In this document: positions 20,356-40,514 of the stretch, piece after piece | Layout of the letters: every line of letters begins with the position of its first letter | Position numbering within the stretch: position 1 is the stretch's first letter | Source of the DNA: Berkelbacteria bacterium GW2011_GWA2_35_9 | GTDB taxonomy: Bacteria > Patescibacteriota > UBA1384 > GWA2-35-9 | Direction: 5' to 3' | NCBI GenBank assembly: GCA_000991185.1 | Contig: LBRB01000009.1 | Location: 1 to 40,799 of the forward strand | Length of the DNA: 40,799 bases | Program-made: the position numbers and the translations under genes | The notes under the pieces: model-generated | Told to the model about the DNA's origin: nothing | Database searches by the model: none | What the model saw: the letters and a program-made list of their open reading frames with translations, nothing else

Positions 20356-20405
20356 CTTAAACCGTTTTTCCGCAACCCCGGAGGTTGCGGAAAAACGGTT
20401 AGGAA
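20356..20405. repeat. RAYT-flanking palindrome, downstream copy
   Basis: AACCGTTTTTCCGCAACC ccgga GGTTGCGGAAAAACGGTT, 18-bp perfect stem. Confidence 0.9.
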
Positions 20406-28753: not shown

Positions 28754-28903
28754 GTTTAAAAGAAAAAAGGTCGCGCGAAAAATTAAAGAATTGAAAAGAA
28801 AATTGCTTTGCTTTGCTCGCCGAGTTTCGGCGGGCGGAAACGCGGAGCGGAGTTAATCGAGCATTTTTCGTTCAAAATAGGTTCGAGCTTCGTTCAGCAA
28901 TTG

Positions 28904-29042
<139 letters not shown>

Positions 29043-29089: not shown

Positions 29090-29158
29090 CTCTACCAAGC
29101 TGTTCCGACGATCTCTGATGTCGGAATCCCGACCGAAGCGTCGGGAAGCCACTCCCCG
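29090..29158 (-). repeat. Duplicated tRNA-Pro 5' fragment interrupted by twin hairpins (insert 29103-29146)
   Basis: CGGGGAGTGGCT | TCCCGACgcttcgGTCGGGA TTCCGACatcagagatcGTCGGAA | CAGCTTGGTAGAG. Confidence 0.92.
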
Positions 29159-29205
29159 AAATTAATCACTGAACAGAAAATATTATACATTAATAATAAG
29201 ATATT

Positions 29206-30732
29206 TCAATTCTTGATAGCTACTTTATCCGAAACTTGATACTCTAAATATTTACCAAACATCAGTCTTGTCTGTGCGTCGATTGAAGCAAATGCACTTA
29301 AAAATATACTAACAATCGGAACTAAAAACCACTGTAGTACAAAGCTGGTATATTTATGCGCACGGTAATAAAATGTTGTTTCTGGCTTTGATGGAATCAA
29401 TTTTAAACTTATATAGATAGATACTATTAAACCCATCAAAGCAAAAATCAGAATCGATCGACTATAAAAAGGTAAATTAGCTCCTAAGACTGTTTTTGAA
29501 AATGCAGGATTAAAATAAGCTGGAATCCAGCTTAAAATTGTTATAAAAATCGCTCCAGTTGCCCAAGAAAAATGACTTTCTAAAAGATAAAATATTTTAT
29601 ACATTTTTTTCCACATAGAAATATTTTTATCTTCAAACGCTTTAAAAACAACATACGGAAAATCAACTATACCCCACGCCCAACGACGAAGTTGCTGGTA
29701 TTGATTTTTTATTGTTTTGAAAAAAGTATCCGATAAAACAGCGCTCATTTCTAGCGGAATGTAAAGCGGTTCAATTTTTAATTTACCCTGGTAATAAAAA
29801 AACGAATCATAATATTCACGAGAATCTTCTGGGATTGAGTCAACCGTCCAAAAATTAATATCAACCAATGTTTTAAAAATATCAACACGAGAAGAAAAGT
29901 GATGTAATTTTTTTTCTCGAAGAGTATTGTGCATAAATATTAATGTTGAACTCATCGCAACAACCCTGACGGCTGCCGGAGCCTCCCACATATTGTTAAG
30001 ATAAACATGAATTGGTTGATATGAGGTTGGTTGATTGATGTTGGTAGTCAAATATTTATATGCAACATAATGGAAAAATTGTGGACGAGTTTTAGTATCA
30101 GCGTCAAAATTATGCAATATGACTTGATCGTAATTAATCTTATTTTTATCTAAATATTTTTTTATTTCTTTCGCTCCCCAAGTAGCATTTGAAGATTTTG
30201 ATTTTATTTCACCTTTTAAATCAGCAGGGTGTACAGTTTTAAGAATAGTATGGAAATATTGTCCATATTTATTTTGTATATATCGATAAACCATTTCCCC
30301 ATGATCACCAGCTCTTTCCTCAGTTGCTAAAACTAAAATAAACTTTTCTTTATTATAGTTTGATGAAATATACGATTTAACAGATTCTTCAATTAGTTCA
30401 ATTGGTTCTTTATAAAAAATTAATAAAATAACCTGATATAGATTTTCAAATTTATATTTACTAGCAACGATATTATTATTTTTTGAGTAGTCAATACTTT
30501 TAATTTTATTAATCCAGTCAATTTTTGCATCTTTTTTCATATGATTGTAGGCGATCGAAGTATTGATCGAAAGTCTGATAGAACGATAAAACCAAAACAT
30601 ATCAAAACAAAGAATAAAAATTGCAATTGCGATCGGACTGTAAAAAGCGAGAAAAAAAGTTATTAAAAAAGCTGACCAAGTTAATAAACCAGGAATTATT
30701 TCCAATACTCGGCGATAAAAATAATTTTCCAT
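29206..30732 (-). CDS. Membrane glycosyltransferase, family 2-like
   Basis: YKEPIELIEESVKSYISSNYNKEKFILVLATEE, HNFDADTKTRPQFF, QQLRRWAWGIVDF. Confidence 0.85.
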   Translation of the reverse strand: MENYFYRRVLEIIPGLLTWSAFLITFFLAFYSPIAIAIFILCFDMFWFYRSIRLSINTSIAYNHMKKDAKIDWINKIKSIDYSKNNNIVASKYKFENLYQVILLIFYKEPIELIEESVKSYISSNYNKEKFILVLATEERAGDHGEMVYRYIQNKYGQYFHTILKTVHPADLKGEIKSKSSNATWGAKEIKKYLDKNKINYDQVILHNFDADTKTRPQFFHYVAYKYLTTNINQPTSYQPIHVYLNNMWEAPAAVRVVAMSSTLIFMHNTLREKKLHHFSSRVDIFKTLVDINFWTVDSIPEDSREYYDSFFYYQGKLKIEPLYIPLEMSAVLSDTFFKTIKNQYQQLRRWAWGIVDFPYVVFKAFEDKNISMWKKMYKIFYLLESHFSWATGAIFITILSWIPAYFNPAFSKTVLGANLPFYSRSILIFALMGLIVSIYISLKLIPSKPETTFYYRAHKYTSFVLQWFLVPIVSIFLSAFASIDAQTRLMFGKYLEYQVSDKVAIKN

Positions 30733-30733
30733 A

Positions 30734-31108
30734 CTATTGAACTGATAAAATCCCTTTTAGGAGGACATAATCTAGTATTGAGAGAAAAACAGGCATAGCT
30801 AATAGAAAATAAACTGAAAATAAAAAAAATCGGTAGGAAACTAGAGAAATAATTATATTTAGAATACTGATTACAAGTGAAAAAATTACCGGTGTTCGGT
30901 CAAACTGAAACATAAATACCCAAATATACCAGAGAACTACTTGTAAGATAATAATTAAAAAAACAAAAACAGTTAAAAGTGGATTTTTTGTGAATAGCCT
31001 CTTTATTGAACGGGGTTTAATCATAAAACGCTTATGATTATAACAGAAAATGATAATTAAATAAAGAACTATTGTACAAATTCCAGTAAACATATTATAA
31101 TTAATCAA
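30734..31108 (-). CDS. Membrane protein, unknown function
   Basis: Hydrophobic ORF abutting the glycosyltransferase gene. Confidence 0.6.
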   Translation of the reverse strand: MINYNMFTGICTIVLYLIIIFCYNHKRFMIKPRSIKRLFTKNPLLTVFVFLIIILQVVLWYIWVFMFQFDRTPVIFSLVISILNIIISLVSYRFFLFSVYFLLAMPVFLSILDYVLLKGILSVQ

Positions 31109-31500
31109 TGGAAAACAAATTATTTCGATCCAAAAGCGATAAAATTATAGCTGGAGTGTGCGGAGGTGTTGCTGAATATTTTAAGATTGATCCGATAGCG
31201 GTTCGAGTTGCGTTTGTTATTTTAGCGTTTGTAAATGGTTATGGTTTTGTTTTGTATTTAATTTTAGCTATTTTATTGCCTGAAAACGGTACGATAAAAA
31301 AAGATAATACACAAGAAATTAAAAATAAATTACCAATAAAAAAATTCGGGGATTTTAGAGATATTCTGGCGGTTGTTCTAATTTTAATTGGAGTTATATC
31401 ATTGGCTCAACAGATTTTTCCGTCATTCTGGATAAGTATTAAATTGTTTTATTCAATAATCATTATCGGTCTAGGATTGTATTTGGTAATAAAGGATTAA
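31108..31500 (+). CDS. PspC domain protein
   Basis: KLFRSKSDKIIAGVCGGVAEYFKIDPIAVRVAFV. Confidence 0.93.
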   Translation: MENKLFRSKSDKIIAGVCGGVAEYFKIDPIAVRVAFVILAFVNGYGFVLYLILAILLPENGTIKKDNTQEIKNKLPIKKFGDFRDILAVVLILIGVISLAQQIFPSFWISIKLFYSIIIIGLGLYLVIKD

Positions 31501-31501
31501 T

Positions 31502-31798
31502 ATGTTAAATTGTCATTTTTGTAAAAAAGAGATAGATAATTGTTCCTGTATTAATTTCGGAAGAATTTTTGCCGGACTATATATTATTTTACTTGGGATA
31601 GTAACCCTTTTAGATAGTTTAAATTTAATTTCAGTCAATTATGAATTGATAATTAAAAACTTTTGGTCGTTATTAATTGTATTGATTGGTCTATCGTTAC
31701 TGTCGGGTAAAAATTGGGTTTCCATTATACTTGGGTCAATATTTACAATATTTATTTTTGCGATCACAGCATTGTTAATATTTTCACAGCTATTTTAA
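31502..31798 (+). CDS. Small membrane protein with N-terminal CxxC...CxC
   Basis: MLNCHFCKKEIDNCSC plus TM segments; TAATG overlap with truB. Confidence 0.65.
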   Translation: MLNCHFCKKEIDNCSCINFGRIFAGLYIILLGIVTLLDSLNLISVNYELIIKNFWSLLIVLIGLSLLSGKNWVSIILGSIFTIFIFAITALLIFSQLF

Positions 31799-32454
31799 TG
31801 AACTCTCAAAATGATTTTATCTTGGTTAATAAACCAAAAGGGTGGACCTCTTTTGATGTAGTAAAGTATTACAAAAATAAATTAAAAGTTAAAAAGATTG
31901 GACACGGAGGGACGCTTGATCCTTTGGCGGACGGATTATTGATTTTAGCAATTAATGAAAATACTAAAAAATTATCTGAAATTTCAGGATCAGATAAAGA
32001 ATATGAATTTGAAATACTTTTTGGTTTAAAGAGTGAAACTGGGGATATGGAGGGTAGAACTCTAGATGAGGCAGAAAGTGTTGAGGTTGATAAGGAAGAT
32101 ATTGTATCTTGTATCAATAAATTGACTGGCATTATAAAACTGATTGTACCTAAATATTCAGCTGTAAAAATAAAAGGTGATAAATTATACAATTTGGCAA
32201 GAAAGGGAAAAATTGCCAATGATATGCAATTACCAATACGAAAGAGTCAAATATATAGTTTGCAACTGCAAAAACTATACAAAATTAATGAAAAACAGAT
32301 TGCAAAAATAAAAGTTGAATGTTCGAGCGGGACATATGTAAGATCGTTAGTCGAAAAAATTGGTGAATTATTAAAAATTCCAACGGTTGCTTATAGTATC
32401 AAAAGAACTAAAGTTGGAAATTTTGATTTAAAAGACGCTGAAAAATTAATTTAA
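31798..32454 (+). CDS. truB: tRNA pseudouridine(55) synthase
   Basis: LVNKPKGWTSFDVV, IGHGGTLDPLADGLL; start MNSQNDF. Confidence 0.95.
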   Translation: MNSQNDFILVNKPKGWTSFDVVKYYKNKLKVKKIGHGGTLDPLADGLLILAINENTKKLSEISGSDKEYEFEILFGLKSETGDMEGRTLDEAESVEVDKEDIVSCINKLTGIIKLIVPKYSAVKIKGDKLYNLARKGKIANDMQLPIRKSQIYSLQLQKLYKINEKQIAKIKVECSSGTYVRSLVEKIGELLKIPTVAYSIKRTKVGNFDLKDAEKLI

Positions 32455-32469
32455 TGATATTGATTATTA

Positions 32470-32545
32470 TGGGGTGAGTGACGGGAATTGAACCCGCAAC
32501 CACCAGGATCACAACCTGGAGCTCTACCATTGAGCTACACCCACC
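32470..32545 (-). tRNA. tRNA-His(GTG), CCA encoded
   Basis: Cloverleaf with extra G-1; anticodon loop TTGTGAT. Confidence 0.95.
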
Positions 32546-32577
32546 ATCATATTAATTATAAATTATAAATTATTTTT

Positions 32578-32654
32578 TGGTGCCCTTGGCAGGATTCGAA
32601 CCTGCGACCTACTCCTTAGAAGGGAGTCGCTCTAATCCACTGAGCTACAAGGGC
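32578..32654 (-). tRNA. tRNA-Arg(TCT), CCA encoded
   Basis: Cloverleaf; anticodon loop CTTCTAA. Confidence 0.95.
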
Positions 32655-32660
32655 TTTTTT

Positions 32661-32736
32661 TGGAGCCGATGGGCGGATTTAAACCGCCGACCTCTACTTT
32701 ACGAAAGTATTGCTCTATCGACTGAGCTACATCGGC
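32661..32736 (-). tRNA. tRNA-Thr(CGT), CCA encoded, atypical A19/T56
   Basis: Cloverleaf; anticodon loop TTCGTAA; D-loop AGTCGATA; T-loop TTTAAAT. Confidence 0.93.
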
Positions 32737-32790
32737 AAAATCTTAAACAACACTTTGACAAAGCTATCATATTTTAGCAAATAATTACTC

Positions 32791-32819
32791 TTGACACAAG
32801 ACAATTAATTCTATATAAT
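32791..32819 (+). promoter_or_regulatory. Consensus sigma70-like promoter
   Basis: TTGACA 32791-32796, 17 nt, TATAAT 32814-32819. Confidence 0.7.
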
Positions 32820-32847
32820 TCAATTATTCTGTTTTTGGGGGTGTAAC

Positions 32848-33486
32848 TTGAAAAAAGAAAAAGGAAATGTTTATTATTTAGTTTGTCTTTATGGTTTATA
32901 TGATCATATATTAAGAACCCCAATTGAATTGGATGGGTATACAGAATATCTGGACGCACTTGTTGAACTATATAGAAATAATATTTTTGATAAAGATGAA
33001 GTATATTTTGTTGATTTGATGTTAGAGGAAAAAATTCCATCAATAATACTCTGCGGTGGAATTACTAATAAGCAATTAGAAGTATCAGAGGCAAGGAGTG
33101 TTTTTCTTAATTACGGTATAAGAAAAAAGATTCTGAATAGGTTGGGTCTACCAGAAAATTCAGAATATGTTCAAGTTTACTTAGAAGAAAATTCAGTAAA
33201 TACTGCTCAAAATATTTATAATGGTATGAGCAGAATAATTGCAAGAGATGTAAATCCAAATAAAACAATTTATGTGATTTGTGATAAATTCAGAAAATTC
33301 AAAGTCAAAATGATTTTGAGAAGAGCATTATCATTGTTTGTAAACATTGGAACAGTAAAAGTAATTGCATTAAAAAGAAAGGATATTCACCCACATTCAA
33401 ATTATATATATCAATTTTTTGCTGGATTAAGATATTTATCTTATTGGAATTTTGTTAAAGATGCTAACTTAAGAGGAGGAAAATAA
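32848..33486 (+). CDS. DUF218/YdcF-like protein
   Basis: IILCGGITNKQLEVSEARSVFLNYG...VYLEENSVNTAQNIYNGM...IYVICDKFRKFKVKMI. Confidence 0.75.
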   Translation: MKKEKGNVYYLVCLYGLYDHILRTPIELDGYTEYLDALVELYRNNIFDKDEVYFVDLMLEEKIPSIILCGGITNKQLEVSEARSVFLNYGIRKKILNRLGLPENSEYVQVYLEENSVNTAQNIYNGMSRIIARDVNPNKTIYVICDKFRKFKVKMILRRALSLFVNIGTVKVIALKRKDIHPHSNYIYQFFAGLRYLSYWNFVKDANLRGGK

Positions 33487-33523
33487 TAGTATCAGAAAGT
33501 TAATCGATTAATTCCACACAAAT

Positions 33524-33546
33524 ACCCCGCCAATGCGGGGTTTTCT
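33524..33546 (+). terminator. Rho-independent terminator
   Basis: ACCCCGC caat GCGGGGT TTTC. Confidence 0.7.
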
Positions 33547-33548
33547 CT

Positions 33549-33625
33549 TGGCGGACTGGACGGGACTTGAACCCGCAACCTTCTGCGTGACAGGCAGATG
33601 CTCTAACCAATTGAGCTACCAGTCC
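33549..33625 (-). tRNA. tRNA-Asp(GTC), CCA encoded
   Basis: Cloverleaf; anticodon loop CTGTCAC. Confidence 0.95.
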
Positions 33626-33626
33626 A

Positions 33627-33875
33627 TTAGATATTGTCAATAATTAATTTTTTAATTTTTTTCCCAAATCCCATTTTATAAAATTTCTCACGATTTTTTG
33701 CATCATCTGAACAATAATATTGCTCAAAGTACATTAATTTAAATGGTCTATTATTTTTTGTCCATTTGTTTTTGCCTTGGTTATGCTCTTTTAGTCTTTC
33801 ATCCACTGATTTACTAGTATACCCAACATAAACTCTATTATTGGTTTCGCTTCTAATGAAATATAAACTATACAT
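33627..33875 (-). CDS. Small GIY-YIG nuclease domain protein
   Basis: MYSLYFIRSETNNRVYVGYTSKSVDERLKEHNQG...FKLMYFEQY. Confidence 0.92.
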   Translation of the reverse strand: MYSLYFIRSETNNRVYVGYTSKSVDERLKEHNQGKNKWTKNNRPFKLMYFEQYYCSDDAKNREKFYKMGFGKKIKKLIIDNI

Positions 33876-33889
33876 AACTATTCATAAGG

Positions 33890-33941
33890 TAACCAATTGT
33901 CAGCCAGAGGCTGATCGTCCTTTGGACGAAGCTACCAGTCC
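33890..33941 (-). repeat. Duplicated tRNA-Asp 5' fragment interrupted by twin hairpins (insert 33900-33929)
   Basis: GGACTGGTAGCT | TCGTCCaaaGGACGA TCAGCCtctGGCTGA | CAATTGGTTA. Confidence 0.92.
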
Positions 33942-34045
33942 AAAATAAAAAATATATTTTTGATATTTAATATGTCCTTTATTATTTTACTTATATATGA
34001 TATAAAATAAATATAATTTAATCAAGAGGAAGAAAGGTCGAAAAC

Positions 34046-34294
34046 ATGAAAGATAATTTAATTGGTCAAGTTATTCATTATTTTGGCAACATTTCGGTGG
34101 CTGTCATAAAATTGGATGACAATTTAAGCATTGGGGATTCTATCAAAATAGAAGGTGCAACTACTAATATTGATCAGACAGTTGAATCAATCCAGGTCGA
34201 TAAAAAAGATTTAGAAAATGCTGACAAGGGAGAAGAAGTTGGGATTAAGGTAGTTGATAAGGTTCGATCTGGAGATAAAGTTTACAAAATTTAA
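34046..34294 (+). CDS. Translation elongation factor-like (EF-Tu domain 2-like) small protein
   Basis: IGQVIHYFGNISVAVIKLDDNLSIGDSIKIEGATTNIDQTVESIQVDKK. Confidence 0.75.
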   Translation: MKDNLIGQVIHYFGNISVAVIKLDDNLSIGDSIKIEGATTNIDQTVESIQVDKKDLENADKGEEVGIKVVDKVRSGDKVYKI

Positions 34295-34299
34295 CTCAA

Positions 34300-34374
34300 G
34301 CGGGTGTAGTTCAGTGGTAGAATGTTTCCTTCCCAAGGAAAAGGTCGTGGGTTCGAACCCCATCACCCGCTCCA
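34300..34374 (+). tRNA. tRNA-Gly(CCC), CCA encoded
   Basis: Cloverleaf; anticodon loop TTCCCAA. Confidence 0.95.
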
Positions 34375-34379
34375 TTTTT

Positions 34380-35582
34380 ATGTTGATGAAAAAGAAATTT
34401 TTTACAGTTCTCAAAAATGATAAAAAAACCATTGCTAGAATTGGAAAATTATCTACTGATCATGGGGATATAGACACTCCTTTTTTTTCTGTTGTCGGAA
34501 CTAGTGCAACGGTTAGAACTTTAAGTAGTGAAGAAATATTAGAAACTGACACCCAATTAGTTTTAGCAAATACATACCATTTGCATTTGCGACCGAATGA
34601 AAAAGTTATTAAAAAACTTGGTGGACTTTCAAAATTCATGAATTTAAATTTACCCACTATGACAGATAGTGGTGGCTTTCAAGCGATGAGCTTAGGTGCC
34701 GGTAGGGAACATGGAATTGGTAAAATAGGTTTTTTCCCTAATGGAAAAAAACTTGAAAATACAGAAGATAGAAGTTTAGTCAATATTACGGAAAGTGGAA
34801 TTGAATTTAGATCACACCATGATGGAAGCAGGCACTTTTTTTCACCGGAAATTTCAATGCAAATACAGAGCGATCTCGGCGCTGATATTATTTTTGCTTT
34901 TGATGAATGCACATCTCCATTACATAATTTTGAATATACAAAAAAATCAATGGAAAGAACCCATCGTTGGGCTGTTAGATCATTGGAGTCATATAATAAA
35001 AAACAAAAAATCTATGGTATTATTCAGGGCGGGGTTTTTAAAGACTTGAGATTAATCTCGGCTAAATTCATTGATAAATTGAATTTTGATGGCATTGCAA
35101 TCGGTGGAGCTTTAGGAGATACAAAAGACAGTAAAAATGAAATCACTGAATATATTGTTAGTAACTTATCTAATAAAAAACCACGCCATATGTTAGGTAT
35201 TGGAGATGTTGATGATATTTTTGAAGCAGTTGAAAGAGGTATTGATAGTTTAGATTGCGTTTGGTTTACCCGACTAGCTAGAAGAAATATGTATTTTATT
35301 TATCCGGAAGACGGAGGTAACAAAATAAATCGTTGGCGAAAAAATATTCGTTCAGTGAAATTAATTTTAGAAAATCCATTGTCGGAATATTGCAAATGCA
35401 ATATATGTAGTAATTATTCCGCAACTTACATTAAACATTTAGTTGTTGCTAACGAAATGCTAGGTATGAGATTAATTACTTATCATAATATATTTTTTGT
35501 TAACAATTTAATGAAACAAATTAGAGAATCAATTCAGAATAGTAAATTTTTAGAGTTAAAATCATATTGGTACGGAAAATAA
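34380..35582 (+). CDS. tgt: tRNA-guanine transglycosylase
   Basis: LANTYHLHLRP, TDSGGFQAMSL, FDECTSP, YGIIQGG, CKCNIC...YIKHL; start set after tRNA-Gly. Confidence 0.93.
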   Translation: MLMKKKFFTVLKNDKKTIARIGKLSTDHGDIDTPFFSVVGTSATVRTLSSEEILETDTQLVLANTYHLHLRPNEKVIKKLGGLSKFMNLNLPTMTDSGGFQAMSLGAGREHGIGKIGFFPNGKKLENTEDRSLVNITESGIEFRSHHDGSRHFFSPEISMQIQSDLGADIIFAFDECTSPLHNFEYTKKSMERTHRWAVRSLESYNKKQKIYGIIQGGVFKDLRLISAKFIDKLNFDGIAIGGALGDTKDSKNEITEYIVSNLSNKKPRHMLGIGDVDDIFEAVERGIDSLDCVWFTRLARRNMYFIYPEDGGNKINRWRKNIRSVKLILENPLSEYCKCNICSNYSATYIKHLVVANEMLGMRLITYHNIFFVNNLMKQIRESIQNSKFLELKSYWYGK

Positions 35583-35636
35583 GGCTAGAAATTTCAATTA
35601 CTCTATGCTATACTACAATTTGTAATTGTTCATTAA

Positions 35637-35713
35637 GCCCCCTTAGCTCAGTGGATTAGAGCGCCACGCTTCGGACGTGGAAGTCGGGGGTTCGAATCCC
35701 TCAGGGGGCACCA
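35637..35713 (+). tRNA. tRNA-Arg(TCG), CCA encoded
   Basis: Cloverleaf; anticodon loop CTTCGGA. Confidence 0.95.
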
Positions 35714-35721
35714 TTATTATA

Positions 35722-35798
35722 GGGCGATTAGCTCAGTTGGTTAGAGCGTCTCGTTTACACCGAGAAGGTCGGGGGTTCGAGCCCCTCATCGCCTACCA
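35722..35798 (+). tRNA. tRNA-Val(TAC), CCA encoded
   Basis: Cloverleaf; anticodon loop TTTACAC. Confidence 0.95.
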
Positions 35799-35799
35799 C

Positions 35800-35874
35800 G
35801 CCGAGGTAGCTCAGTGGTAGAGCAGGTGCCTGAAGAGCATCGTGTCGTCAGTTCGATTCTGACCCTTGGCACCA
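35800..35874 (+). tRNA. tRNA-Phe(GAA), CCA encoded
   Basis: Cloverleaf; anticodon loop CTGAAGA. Confidence 0.93.
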
Positions 35875-35973
35875 TACAAAAGAAAAGATTAAAGATTAAA
35901 GATTAAAGATTTAAAAAATTTATTTCTGGATTTAAATCAACCATTTTCAAAAAGCGATGAGAAAACGCTTTAT

Positions 35974-36297
35974 TTGGTTGCTGGAATTTCATTTGGAATA
36001 TTATTATTAAATATAATTTTTCAACTGTTTTTTTTAAGCAATAATCAAGCGAAAGAAAAATTACAAAAGAAAATAATATCTTTTCTCTACACTTGCACAA
36101 TTTCTTACCTTATGTTAACATTTTTTAGGTGGCAAGATCTTCCACTTCTTAATTATCAAATAGTTTGGTATTTATTAACAATATTTTTATTTATTTGGTT
36201 AATTAATATTTTCATCTATTTTTTAATTAACTATAAGAAAGACATTAAAAAAATTAAACAAGAAATAAATTTTCAAAAATATTTAGGAAAAAAATAG
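35974..36297 (+). CDS. Small membrane protein, start uncertain
   Basis: Hydrophobic ORF; frame stays open upstream without ATG (RLKIKDLKNLFLDLNQPFSKSDEKTLY...). Confidence 0.5.
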   Translation: MVAGISFGILLLNIIFQLFFLSNNQAKEKLQKKIISFLYTCTISYLMLTFFRWQDLPLLNYQIVWYLLTIFLFIWLINIFIYFLINYKKDIKKIKQEINFQKYLGKK

Positions 36298-36298
36298 T

Positions 36299-37474
36299 AT
36301 GGCAACAAAAACCAAAAAAACTGTCAGTATGGATGAATTAGTTGAAAAATATGGACAAGATATTGTTCCAATTTCAGTTGGAGATTCGGTTGAGGTAGAA
36401 GTTTTGACTAAATCAAAAAATAAAATTACTGTTGATGTGAGCGGATTAGCTAGCGGAGTTATACCAGAAAAAGAATTTTCATATAGTTGTAACGATATTA
36501 AACCAGGGGATATTATTACAGCCAGCGTACTTCTTGCAGAAAATGAAAATGGTTTTGTGATTTTATCATTAAAACAAGCTGACAATGATCGAGCTTGGGA
36601 CATTTTAGAAGAAAAAAAGAAAAACAAAGAAAATATTCAAGTCAAAATTAAGTCTGCAAATCGTGGTGGGTTGATTGCTGAGTATAAAGACACTGAAGGA
36701 TTTATTCCGGTCTCTCAATTAGCGCCTAACAATTATCCAAAAGTTGAAGGTGGCAATCAAAGTTTAATCTTGAAAAAATTACAGAGTTTCGTCGGAGAAT
36801 TAATGGATGTGAAGGTAATGTCGGTGGATAAAAATTCAGAAAAATTAATTTTTTCAGAAAAAATTGCTGTTGGATCGATCAAGGATGAAGATGTAAAAAA
36901 TCTTAAATTAGGCAAAGAAGTCGAGGCATTAATTACATCGATTGTAGATTTTGGATTGTTTGTTAAAATAAATATTGAAAAAAAAGAATATGATGGTTTG
37001 ATTCATTATAGCGAGATAACTTGGGACAAACAGGTTGATTGGAAAAAAAATTACAAAGAAGGTCAAAAAGTTAAAGCAGTGATTATTTCATTAAAAGATG
37101 GCAGATTAGCTCTTTCAATCAAAGCTCTTGAAAAAAATCCATGGGAGAAGGCAGAAGGAAAAATTAAGAAAGGGGATACAATCGAGGGAAAAATTACTAG
37201 CATTACTCCATATGGAGCATTCGTAGAAGTTATGAAAAATGTCGAAGGTATGGTGCATATTTCAAATTTAGGTAAGAAAATAACCGACCCGAACAAAGTT
37301 TTAGAAAAAGATAAAAAATATAAATTTGAAATATTAGATTTAGATTTAAAAAATAAAAAAATTTCTCTTAAATTAATTAAATCTGAGAAAAAAAATAAAA
37401 CAAAAAAAATAGAAAAAAAAGTTACCAAAAATAAAACTAAAGCAACTAAAAGTAAAATTAAAAATAAAAAATGA
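36299..37474 (+). CDS. rpsA: 30S ribosomal protein S1-like, multiple S1 domains, Lys-rich tail
   Basis: GLFVKINIEKKEYDGLIHYSEITWDK; TPYGAFVEVMKNVEGMVHISNLG. Confidence 0.9.
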   Translation: MATKTKKTVSMDELVEKYGQDIVPISVGDSVEVEVLTKSKNKITVDVSGLASGVIPEKEFSYSCNDIKPGDIITASVLLAENENGFVILSLKQADNDRAWDILEEKKKNKENIQVKIKSANRGGLIAEYKDTEGFIPVSQLAPNNYPKVEGGNQSLILKKLQSFVGELMDVKVMSVDKNSEKLIFSEKIAVGSIKDEDVKNLKLGKEVEALITSIVDFGLFVKINIEKKEYDGLIHYSEITWDKQVDWKKNYKEGQKVKAVIISLKDGRLALSIKALEKNPWEKAEGKIKKGDTIEGKITSITPYGAFVEVMKNVEGMVHISNLGKKITDPNKVLEKDKKYKFEILDLDLKNKKISLKLIKSEKKNKTKKIEKKVTKNKTKATKSKIKNKK

Positions 37475-37941
37475 TTATTACCAAAAAAGAGGGGAAGCTG
37501 ATCGTAAAAAATAAAAATTCTGCCGTAAAGTTTATTAGTGAAAGTGTTAAAATAAATGATTTCAAACTACCCGGACCCGGCGAGTATGAAGTTGGTGGAA
37601 TTTTGGCTTATGGATTAAGCGAAGGTGGTTATGTTTTTAAAGATGATGAATTTGGATTTGGATATTTAGATGGAATTAATAAAGTTCTTGATGAGAAAAA
37701 ATTAGAAGATTTACCAGATGTTGAAATACTTTTTGTTAATTTTTCTGATGATAATAAAATATCTGCAACTGAAAAAAATATTAAGATTTTTGATCCTAGA
37801 ATCGTAATTGCATTTGGGGATGGAGATAAAATAGAAACTAATATTGCAAATATTGGAAGATATGAAGAAATTGAAGGAGTGTTAAAATTGAAGAAATCTG
37901 ATTTGCCATTTGAAGGGCAAAAGATATACTTCATTAAATGA
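37471..37941 (+). CDS. Truncated metallo-beta-lactamase-fold-like protein
   Basis: LPGPGEYEVGGI motif; no HxHxDH motif. Confidence 0.5.
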   Translation: MIITKKEGKLIVKNKNSAVKFISESVKINDFKLPGPGEYEVGGILAYGLSEGGYVFKDDEFGFGYLDGINKVLDEKKLEDLPDVEILFVNFSDDNKISATEKNIKIFDPRIVIAFGDGDKIETNIANIGRYEEIEGVLKLKKSDLPFEGQKIYFIK

Positions 37942-38846
37942 AATCAATTGCTAATTTTTATAAGGTCATCTCTTCTTACGAAGAAATCGCTGTTGTTATC
38001 CATAAAAACCCAGACGGTGATGCTGTCGGCTCATCGTTGGCATTAAGAGATCTACTAAAATATTTTGGTAAAAAAGTTAAAATATATAGTTTTGATGAGT
38101 TGCCCGAAATGTTTTTGGTGTTGCAAGACGGATATCTAAAACTAATGGATAATCCAATTGTTGAGAAATTAATATTTTTAGTTGATTGTGCAGATTTTAA
38201 TTTAACAGGATTAATAAATACTGATATTCTTAATAAAATAATATTTAGCATTGACCATCATAATCGAACAAAAATTAAAAAAGTATCAAAATATTTAATT
38301 TATGCTGATAAATCCTCGACAGCAGAAATTATTTATAATATATTTCAATATTTTAATGTTGATATTGAAAGTAAAACAGCCGACTATTTATTGTTAGGTA
38401 TATATTCAGATACTGGAGGAATGCTTCATTCTAATGTTAATGAAAAAACATTAGAAGTGGTTTCAAATTTACTCCTGTACGGAGGAAAACTTAAATTAGC
38501 TATGAGCTGTTTGAAGGAAAGAAAAAAATTTAATCGGATTAAGCTTTGGGGATATGCAATAGAAAGATTGAAGTTTAACCAAAAATATGGTATTCTTTAT
38601 TCCGTAATTACTAATTTAGAACTTGAAAAATATGGATGTGACCAGAATGATGTTTCGGGTTTAGTTAATTTCATTAACTCAGATAAAAATATTAATGTCT
38701 TTGCTGTTTTTATTCAACAAAATAATAAAATAAAAGGCTCGATGAGATCTGAAAATAAGTTAATTGATGTTGGAAAAATTGCTGAGATATTTAGTGGCGG
38801 AGGGCACAAAAAAGCAGCTGGTTTCGTATACAAGATTGAAGGTTAG
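37938..38846 (+). CDS. DHH/DHHA1 family phosphoesterase (NrnA-like)
   Basis: IHKNPDGDAVGSSLAL, FLVDCADFN, SIDHHNRTK, SGGGHKKAAGF. Confidence 0.93.
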   Translation: MKSIANFYKVISSYEEIAVVIHKNPDGDAVGSSLALRDLLKYFGKKVKIYSFDELPEMFLVLQDGYLKLMDNPIVEKLIFLVDCADFNLTGLINTDILNKIIFSIDHHNRTKIKKVSKYLIYADKSSTAEIIYNIFQYFNVDIESKTADYLLLGIYSDTGGMLHSNVNEKTLEVVSNLLLYGGKLKLAMSCLKERKKFNRIKLWGYAIERLKFNQKYGILYSVITNLELEKYGCDQNDVSGLVNFINSDKNINVFAVFIQQNNKIKGSMRSENKLIDVGKIAEIFSGGGHKKAAGFVYKIEG

Positions 38847-38889
38847 TATTCTAAAATCTAAAATCTATATTCGAAATTCTAAATTTATT

Positions 38890-38975
38890 GCCCGGGTGGT
38901 GGAATGGTAGACACGCAGGACTCAAAATCCTGTGCTCGTAAGAGTGTGAGAGTTCAAATCTCTCCCCGGGTACCA
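38890..38975 (+). tRNA. tRNA-Leu(CAA), CCA encoded
   Basis: Type II cloverleaf; anticodon loop CTCAAAA. Confidence 0.93.
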
Positions 38976-38980
38976 TAAAT

Positions 38981-39023
38981 GCCGAGGTGGTGCCTGCCCT
39001 GCGAATGCAGGGAAATTGGCAGA
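38981..39023 (+). repeat. Duplicated tRNA-Leu 5' fragment interrupted by CCTG-hairpin (insert 38993-39012)
   Basis: GCCGAGGTGGTG | CCTG CCCTGCgaatGCAGGG | AAATTGGCAGA. Confidence 0.92.
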
Positions 39024-39065
39024 ATAAGTAAATGATAATATTAGAATAGGTAAGATTATAATTAT

Positions 39066-39152
39066 GCCGAGGTGGTGAAATTGGCAGACACGCTAGATTT
39101 AGGATCTAGTGCCTGAAAAGGCTTGCGAGTTCAAATCTCGCCCTCGGTACCA
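39066..39152 (+). tRNA. tRNA-Leu(TAG), CCA encoded
   Basis: Type II cloverleaf; anticodon loop TTTAGGA. Confidence 0.95.
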
Positions 39153-39206
39153 TATAAAACTTGTACTTGTAAATTAGTTCCGAGTACAGTTAACCGTCAG
39201 GCAGAA

Positions 39207-39227
39207 ACCCGCAAATGCGGGTTTTAT
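39207..39227 (+). terminator. Hairpin terminator
   Basis: ACCCGC aaat GCGGGT TTTA. Confidence 0.6.
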
Positions 39228-39229
39228 TG

Positions 39230-39285
39230 TTGACATTTTGTCGATCAATATATATAATTGGTTGGTGATTAGTACTTGGACAAGG
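39230..39285 (+). promoter_or_regulatory. Promoter (17-bp spacer) and TACTTGGACAAGG leader box
   Basis: TTGACA 39230-39235, TATAAT 39253-39258, TACTTGGACAAGG 39273-39285. Confidence 0.6.
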
Positions 39286-39295
39286 GAGGTCAGAA

Positions 39296-39874
39296 TTGAA
39301 AAAAACAATGATTGCGACAGATATTGATGGAGTTATTGTTGATTGGTTTGGTAATTTTTTAAATTTTGCAAATTTAATAATGGGTACTAATTATCAATAT
39401 GAAAATATGCATGATCATGATTTTTCTACAAATTTTAATATATCAAGAGAAATAATTATAATACTTGATAGAATAAGGTCATGTCAGTATGGTCTTGTTA
39501 AATTACCAATAATAAAAGGAGCATTAAGAGCTATAGAGAAATTAAGAGAAAAGTATATTATTGTAATAATTACAAGCCGAAGAGATGAATTCAAAGAAGA
39601 AACAAGTATTTGGAGAGATATGTATTTACCAAATATACCATTATTTTATTCAAATGGTGCCAACAATCCGTATGCGGGAGGGGAAAGAAGGCAAAGCAAA
39701 GAAGAAATCGCTAATGATATAGGTGCTTCATACCTAATAGAAGATAATCCTAATGAATTTGAAAATTGGAAAAGTAAAAACATTGAACCAATTTGTTATG
39801 CACAGCCATGGAATTTAGGAGTAACTAATTATAAAAGATATAATTGGGATCAAATTTTAAAGTACTTATTATAG
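39296..39874 (+). CDS. HAD-like 5'-nucleotidase (NT5C-like)
   Basis: MIATDIDGVIVDWFGNF; IITSRRDEF; YLIEDNPNE; TTG start. Confidence 0.75.
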   Translation: MKKTMIATDIDGVIVDWFGNFLNFANLIMGTNYQYENMHDHDFSTNFNISREIIIILDRIRSCQYGLVKLPIIKGALRAIEKLREKYIIVIITSRRDEFKEETSIWRDMYLPNIPLFYSNGANNPYAGGERRQSKEEIANDIGASYLIEDNPNEFENWKSKNIEPICYAQPWNLGVTNYKRYNWDQILKYLL

Positions 39875-39881
39875 CTAAAAT

Positions 39882-39901
39882 GGACGGTTTAATACCCGTC
39901 C
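39882..39901 (+). terminator. Hairpin downstream of HAD gene
   Basis: GGACGGtttaataccCGTCC. Confidence 0.4.
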
Positions 39902-39954
39902 AATATTTATAAAAGTATGTTAATATATTTCTATACAGCAAAGAATGAAGTTAT

Positions 39955-40030
39955 GGACCAGTAGCTCAGTGGTTAGAGCAATTGCCTCTTAAGCAATGGG
40001 TCGTGGGTTCGAACCCCACCTGGTCCTCCA
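39955..40030 (+). tRNA. tRNA-Lys(CTT), CCA encoded
   Basis: Cloverleaf; anticodon loop CTCTTAA. Confidence 0.95.
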
Positions 40031-40076
40031 TAAATTATTTTACAATTTACAGTTTTCAATTTACAATAACTATTAT

Positions 40077-40151
40077 GGCGCCATCGTCTAGTGGTTAGGA
40101 CAGCAGGTTTTTCACGCCAAAAGCGTGATCCAGCATTTGGCTGGACATCCT
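40077..40151 (+). repeat. tRNA-Glu 5' half interrupted in the anticodon loop by twin hairpins (insert 40112-40145)
   Basis: GGCGCCATCGTCTAGTGGTTAGGACAGCAGGTTTT | TCACGCcaaaaGCGTGA TCCAGCatttgGCTGGA | CATCCT. Confidence 0.92.
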
Positions 40152-40439: not shown

Positions 40440-40514
40440 GGCCTGTTCATCTAGCGGTCAGGATACCAGGTTTTCATCCTGGAAACAGGGGTTCGACTCC
40501 CCTACAGGCTACCA
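40440..40514 (+). tRNA. tRNA-Glu(TTC), CCA encoded
   Basis: Cloverleaf; anticodon loop TTTTCAT. Confidence 0.95.

Follow-up and report, generated by a model that had tools for sequence, protein, structure and literature searches.

Twin hairpins in broken tRNA genes follow the lineage of a neighbouring GIY-YIG nuclease across Patescibacteria and point to little-known mobile DNA

Contig 9 (LBRB01000009.1) of the 619-kb, 85.6% complete genome of Berkelbacteria bacterium GW2011_GWA2_35_9, analysed here over its whole 40,799 nucleotides and called the window, carries three inserts in tRNA sequence that each consist of two directly adjacent perfect hairpins, which raises the question of what these twin hairpins are and how they came to interrupt tRNAs. 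An initial annotation had described them as inserts of constant architecture with completely different stems, placed between T and CA of interrupted tRNAs, unlike miniature inverted-repeat transposable elements (MITEs) or repetitive extragenic palindromic sequences (REPs), and had suggested snap-back or template-switch synthesis. That interpretation is partly supported by our analysis, and the outcome that the annotation had named as refuting it, with no further twins in the genome and no consistent flanks in relatives, did not occur. Across the Patescibacteria, we found that lineages of small GIY-YIG nucleases are each accompanied by a hairpin family of their own, which points to little-known mobile DNA that breaks and replaces tRNA genes.

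The three inserts, found exactly where they had been described (Table 1), have stems of 7 and 7 bp with loops of 10 and 6 nt (Pro), stems of 6 and 6 bp with loops of 3 and 3 nt (Asp) and stems of 6 and 6 bp with loops of 5 and 5 nt (Glu), and the two stems of one twin are often alike, as in TCCCGAC/TTCCGAC. They are the only adjacent perfect hairpins of the window (stem of at least 6 bp, gap 0). Since Markov-shuffled windows yield about 0.75 pairs each at this loose setting, a single pair alone carries little weight; at a strict setting (stem of at least 6 bp, loops of at most 8 nt, GC-rich stems), 546 kb of shuffled sequence gave 0 pairs, against about a dozen at real loci, nearly all of them within tRNA remnants. 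This confirms that the three twins are real, correctly placed and not due to chance. Insertion is precise: removing the insert restores tRNA-Pro as GGCT/CAGC and tRNA-Asp as AGCT/CAAT (the slash marks the insertion point), both between tRNA positions 12 and 13, and tRNA-Glu as TTTT/CATC in the anticodon loop. The inserts do lie in tRNA sequence, as first described, but their hosts are truncated 5' remnants, each followed downstream by an intact tRNA of matching isotype.

These sites are empty in a relative. In G001, a genome of the same genus used for this comparison, one uninterrupted tRNA was found at each of the Asp, Glu, Pro and Leu-TAG loci, the gene order is conserved, and what lies before this single tRNA matches the stretch that precedes the remnant in the window. 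At the Asp and Glu loci, an open reading frame (ORF) for a GIY-YIG nuclease lies between the remnant and the intact tRNA, and the GIY-YIG proteins keep the invariant catalytic residues Y, Y-x-G, R, H and E of a homing endonuclease superfamily; the Pro locus has no nuclease ORF, and 47 nt separate its remnant from the intact tRNA. The tRNA-Glu remnant starts with the acceptor strand GGCGCCA, against GGCCTGT in the intact copy. Since the remnant is of the native type and the intact copy departs from it in an acceptor stem that is consistent within itself (GGCCTGT/ACAGGCT), the entire replacement tRNA-Glu appears, from these letters, to have come in with the element. The copies expected elsewhere in the genome were also found: a fourth insert of the window is a single hairpin in a tRNA-Leu (TAG) remnant, a fifth lies on another contig (C27, locus L003) at tRNA-Leu (GAG) in the order remnant, palindrome, GIY-YIG ORF and intact tRNA, and three further copies belong to the family of the Asp insert.

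We then surveyed 55 genomes of the class, mostly metagenome assemblies. Among 110 scorable GIY-YIG ORFs, 46 have a tRNA within about 120 nt downstream on the same strand, and many of these read into the tRNA and stop at its own TAG or TAA. Reading these 46 loci by eye, we saw a palindrome-interrupted tRNA remnant upstream in about two thirds, and, within 80 nt upstream, tRNA-linked ORFs have a higher-scoring best palindrome than other GIY-YIG ORFs (p=0.00017). The common layout consists of the native tRNA promoter region, the palindrome-interrupted 5' remnant, the GIY-YIG ORF, with its start codon about 10-38 nt after the hairpins, and an intact, isotype-matched tRNA, which the ORF end often overlaps. 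A mirror layout also occurs, in which an intact tRNA and the GIY-YIG ORF are followed by a palindrome-interrupted 3' remnant. Remnants of only 7-10 nt (tRNA positions 1-7 or 1-10) have no palindrome. Four long remnants (L079, L111, L122 and L132) have lost their anticodon loop or had it replaced, which turns the anticodon arm itself into a palindrome. At L031 (1730-1960), several successive 5' tRNA-Ser remnants lie upstream of one intact tRNA-Ser, as if this locus had suffered repeated invasion.

The palindromes fall into families, named here by the lengths of stem, loop, stem and loop where they are twins. The Asp insert belongs to a 30-nt family of (6,3,6,3) twins, one example consensus being TCNGCC AAA GGCNGA TCNGCC TNT GGCNGA, in which base pairs inside the stem vary freely; the Pro insert belongs with L078 and L134 to a CCGAC family of (7,6,7,n) twins, and the Glu insert with L006 to twins with loops of five. 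Other loci have (7,4,7,4) twins with loops ATNC/GNAT or long palindromes (CCTGCCTGCCGGCAGGCAGG, CCCGTCTCGGCT and CCYGCCCGC). It is because the three window copies come from three different families that their stems are wholly different; each family has a consensus, within which the architecture is kept while stem letters change. Insertion sites also depend on the family: between TT and R for dispersed 30-nt copies, after TCG for (7,4,7,4) twins, and after GGTA or GGTAGA for CCTGCCTG palindromes, so that the junction between T and CA holds for the three window inserts but is ruled out as a specific target. The 30-nt family contradicts the claim that the inserts are unlike MITEs or REPs: it is a dispersed repeat, with 74 forward matches in 21 of the 55 genomes, against 3 for a reversed control. 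Its dispersed copies are mostly intergenic, with TT before them in 26 of 50 and a preference for A or G after them, and those in tRNAs likewise mostly follow T. About 13 of 63 examined copies lie within tRNA remnants, a share far above chance for the tiny total length of these remnants. The REP-type GTAG/CGTC tag at the palindrome foot is absent from the 30-nt consensus and its flanks. No dispersed copies of the (7,4,7,4) family were found in the class, and the host pool therefore cannot supply these palindromes.

The palindrome family follows the nuclease lineage and not the host. A tree of 105 GIY-YIG proteins groups loci that share a palindrome family despite differing hosts and tRNAs: L020 (Gln), L070 (Gln) and L024 (Ser), which all have (7,4,7,4) twins, cluster with support of 100/99, and the window Asp nuclease clusters with three Ala loci (L123, L124 and L126; 100/98), all with 30-nt twins. 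Palindrome family correlated with nuclease lineage in a Mantel test (r=0.494, p=1e-4), also when pairs that share a host family or an isotype were left out (r=0.413, p=1e-4), and not with host family (r=-0.01). Exceptions include the mirror-layout loci, which have no upstream remnant.

Predictions made from three lineages (L020, L123 and L112) were checked in other classes of the phylum, and all of them held. There, L020 homologs have (7,4,7-9,4) twins in the anticodon loop, T-loop or D-arm, and the twins of this lineage nearly always follow TCG, with CG repeated around each hairpin. L123 homologs have 30-nt TC..CC/GG..GA twins at Asp, Pro, Ala and Asn tRNAs in 6 of 8 new tRNA-linked loci, and at least 7 more new loci were found in named Moranbacteria, Shapirobacteria, Gottesmanbacteria, Curtissbacteria, Woesebacteria and Berkelbacteria genomes. 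L112 homologs have CCTGCCTGCCGGCAGGCAGG at Leu, Lys, Asn and His tRNAs, besides the known Met locus. Among named public records, the relatives of the window genome's nucleases are almost all from Patescibacteria.

Altogether, we consider it probable that mobile elements encoding GIY-YIG nucleases invade tRNA genes and that the twin hairpins are their cognate palindromes. The nuclease would recognise and cut a short lineage-specific site in the D-arm, anticodon loop or T-loop, and the palindrome would come to rest at this site during the invasion, placed there by the nuclease or by the repair that it starts. The nuclease gene would then settle beside the palindrome and be read from the tRNA promoter, while an intact and sometimes foreign tRNA copy would keep the cell alive; by removing the recognition site, the palindrome may protect the remnant. 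The Pro and Leu-TAG loci would be elements that lost their nuclease gene, and some palindrome families may disperse in the manner of REPs with their REP-associated tyrosine transposases (RAYTs), as short repeats that are not autonomous. GIY-YIG homing enzymes cut with a 2-nt stagger, which the CG repeats around L020-lineage hairpins would fit. A wider claim, namely that small GIY-YIG nucleases mobilise whole families of palindromic repeats, as an unrelated counterpart of the REP/RAYT system that spreads by disrupting essential tRNA genes and providing a substitute tRNA, is one that we put forward tentatively, as somewhat short of an even chance. Several observations weigh against our interpretation. 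Some genomes (G020 and G014) hold many 30-nt copies and no detected cognate nuclease, and of 18 genomes with 30-nt copies 16 have RAYT-like genes, against 13 of 37 without such copies. About a third of the tRNA-linked GIY-YIG ORFs have no clear palindrome, their remnants being very short or missing. Since the letters between palindrome and ORF are those of the current tRNA, the two are not one contiguous segment. Two distant L123 homologs (L309 and L310) have other palindrome types, and the inserts compared in the Mantel tests were delimited by hand.

The association with RAYT-like genes, which the window shares, and the dispersal of the 30-nt family would be expected if the palindromes were ordinary REP or MITE repeats moved by host RAYT (Y1) transposases, with tRNA remnants as merely tolerant landing sites. 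We regard this as unlikely: the 17 RAYT loci checked in genomes with 30-nt copies, and that of the window as well, have other palindromes or none nearby and never the 30-nt twin, which lowers the case for RAYT as the mobiliser of this family; moreover, palindrome families track the GIY-YIG lineage rather than the host, the (7,4,7,4) family has no dispersed copies, and the frequency of hits in remnants of about 25 nt is much higher than random landing would give. The long palindrome next to the window RAYT-like gene, ACCGTTTTTCCGCAACCCCGGAGGTTGCGGAAAAACGGT at 20361-20399, is unlike the tRNA inserts. Slightly less probable still is that selection for immunity has made the palindrome a plug: the nuclease would recut the remnant until the break captured a hairpin, which it would not itself mobilise. 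Inserts at lineage-specific sites and only in the remnant, their absence from very short remnants, and the long remnants with a collapsed anticodon arm in their place are all consistent with a plug. Yet a plug gives no reason for one palindrome family to accompany one nuclease lineage through varied hosts and tRNAs, simpler protection would be had from point mutations or deletions, and the intact copy retains the same site (CGA anticodons, for example).

The position of the hairpins shortly before the start codon in the common layout, together with compensating changes that keep their structure, could also reflect a 5' untranslated region or RNA-processing device of the GIY-YIG transcript, which would control translation or block misfolding of the remnant with the downstream tRNA. 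This is very improbable given the mirror layout, where the interrupted remnant is downstream of the nuclease gene, the dispersed copies outside such a gene context and the Pro and Leu-TAG cases without a nuclease gene. The snap-back or template-switch synthesis proposed in the initial annotation, by which each twin would have been made de novo, has in its favour the perfect stems and the similarity of the two stems of one twin; it is nevertheless the least credible reading, and is unsupported, because synthesis of this kind would not yield families of shared sequence that recur across the phylum and track the neighbouring nuclease lineage, and no copies made from local flanking letters were seen.

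Several known systems offer partial parallels. Like REPs and REPINs (paired REPs) with their RAYTs (TnpA-REP), the elements are short, often paired palindromes, dispersed between genes, with a cognate nuclease gene beside some copies; unlike them, they involve a GIY-YIG nuclease in place of a Y1 HUH transposase and target tRNA genes, and the RAYTs of the same genomes adjoin other palindromes. Some homing endonuclease elements replace the end of their host gene (the Allomyces atp6 element, for example), the endonuclease gene being inserted together with a replacement of the displaced part. The present elements likewise combine an endonuclease gene in a host gene with such a replacement, and resemble homing endonuclease elements in their superfamily ORF with catalytic residues (PF01541) and in the empty site of the relative; here, however, it is a tRNA gene that is targeted, the replacement is a whole tRNA and the remnant bears a palindrome. 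The double-hairpin elements (DHEs) of Allomyces and fission-yeast mitochondria (Paquin 2000, as described in PMC10085805) are presumed mobile GC-rich tandem hairpins of about 30-40 nt and, like the twins described here, place two adjacent GC-rich hairpins at non-coding or RNA-gene positions. The elements described here differ in being bacterial and tied to a nuclease lineage, whereas the mitochondrial DHEs of fission yeasts are found mostly between genes or at rRNA sites, some with identical sequences in different species. The nearest published account is a survey of rRNA genes in the candidate phyla radiation, the same bacterial group (PMC11270868), which reports insertion sequences with GIY-YIG ORFs in these structured RNA genes and mentions neither tRNAs nor hairpins. 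Searches of an open-access library, which leaves out most subscription papers, found no account that brings together GIY-YIG genes, tRNA remnants and palindromes in bacteria, and an Rfam scan of 12 loci matched only tRNA and RNase P and no family corresponding to the hairpins. On the cognate-palindrome interpretation, bacterial palindromic repeats would have a second, unrelated family of cognate enzymes, the many small GIY-YIG genes of Patescibacteria would be accounted for, and mobile DNA would live by breaking and replacing essential tRNA genes, swapping in foreign tRNAs. The lineage-matched pairs of nuclease and palindrome make the mechanism directly testable.

Table 1. Features of the window at and around the inserts.
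Feature	Position	Strand	Basis or remark
RAYT-like Y1 transposase, 218 aa	20430-21086	-	NF047646 below cut-off
Intact tRNA-Pro (TGG)	28966..29042	-	ARAGORN
tRNA-Pro remnant, positions 13-25	29090..29102	-	comparison with tRNA-Pro
Twin-hairpin insert, CCGAC family (7,6,7,10)	29103..29146	-	hairpin scan; same family as L078, L134
tRNA-Pro remnant, positions 1-12	29147..29158	-	identical to intact tRNA-Pro; preceded by promoter region matching that of the single tRNA-Pro of G001
Intact tRNA-Asp (GTC)	33549..33625	-	ARAGORN
GIY-YIG nuclease ORF, 82 aa	33627..33875	-	PF01541 E=6e-16; GIY-YIG motif residues kept
tRNA-Asp remnant, positions 13-22	33890..33899	-	comparison with tRNA-Asp
Twin-hairpin insert, 30-nt (6,3,6,3) family	33900..33929	-	joined flanks match tRNA-Asp 22/22
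tRNA-Asp remnant, positions 1-12	33930..33941	-	comparison with tRNA-Asp
tRNA-Leu remnant with single-hairpin insert CCTGCCCTGCGAATGCAGGG at 38993-39012	38981..39023	+	sequence; G001 has a single Leu-TAG
Intact tRNA-Leu (TAG)	39066..39152	+	ARAGORN
Native tRNA-Glu remnant, positions 1-35	40077..40111	+	89% in alignment of 39955-40111 with native Lys-Glu locus of G001
Twin-hairpin insert (6,5,6,5)	40112..40145	+	hairpin scan
tRNA-Glu remnant CATCCT, 3' of insert	40146..40151	+	comparison with tRNA-Glu
GIY-YIG nuclease ORF, 84 aa	40181..40435	+	PF01541 E=4.5e-17
Intact tRNA-Glu (TTC), foreign-looking acceptor stem	40440..40514	+	ARAGORN; comparison with remnant

Some GIY-YIG ORFs of the class have other surroundings. 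In one lineage (L109, L120, L022, L100 and L017), the ORF lies immediately 3' of tRNA-Ser and its start codon is preceded by a conserved GTACCGCGG...GGTAC hairpin. Three ORFs (L012, L121 and L129) are in a helix loop of an apparent RNase P RNA gene (GAGGAAAGTCC context), in either orientation, and two (L007 and L076) occupy a stem-loop (V1 region) close to the 5' end of the 16S rRNA gene. Short imperfect inverted repeats flank the ORFs of L082, L108 and L092 (CCAGGTAGT...) and those of L005 and L101 (CCCCCACACCAAAT...). In the window itself, a long inverted repeat at 28902-28970, downstream of tRNA-Pro and with CCTGAGCGAAGTCGAAGG in its middle, is perhaps a terminator or a member of another repeat family.

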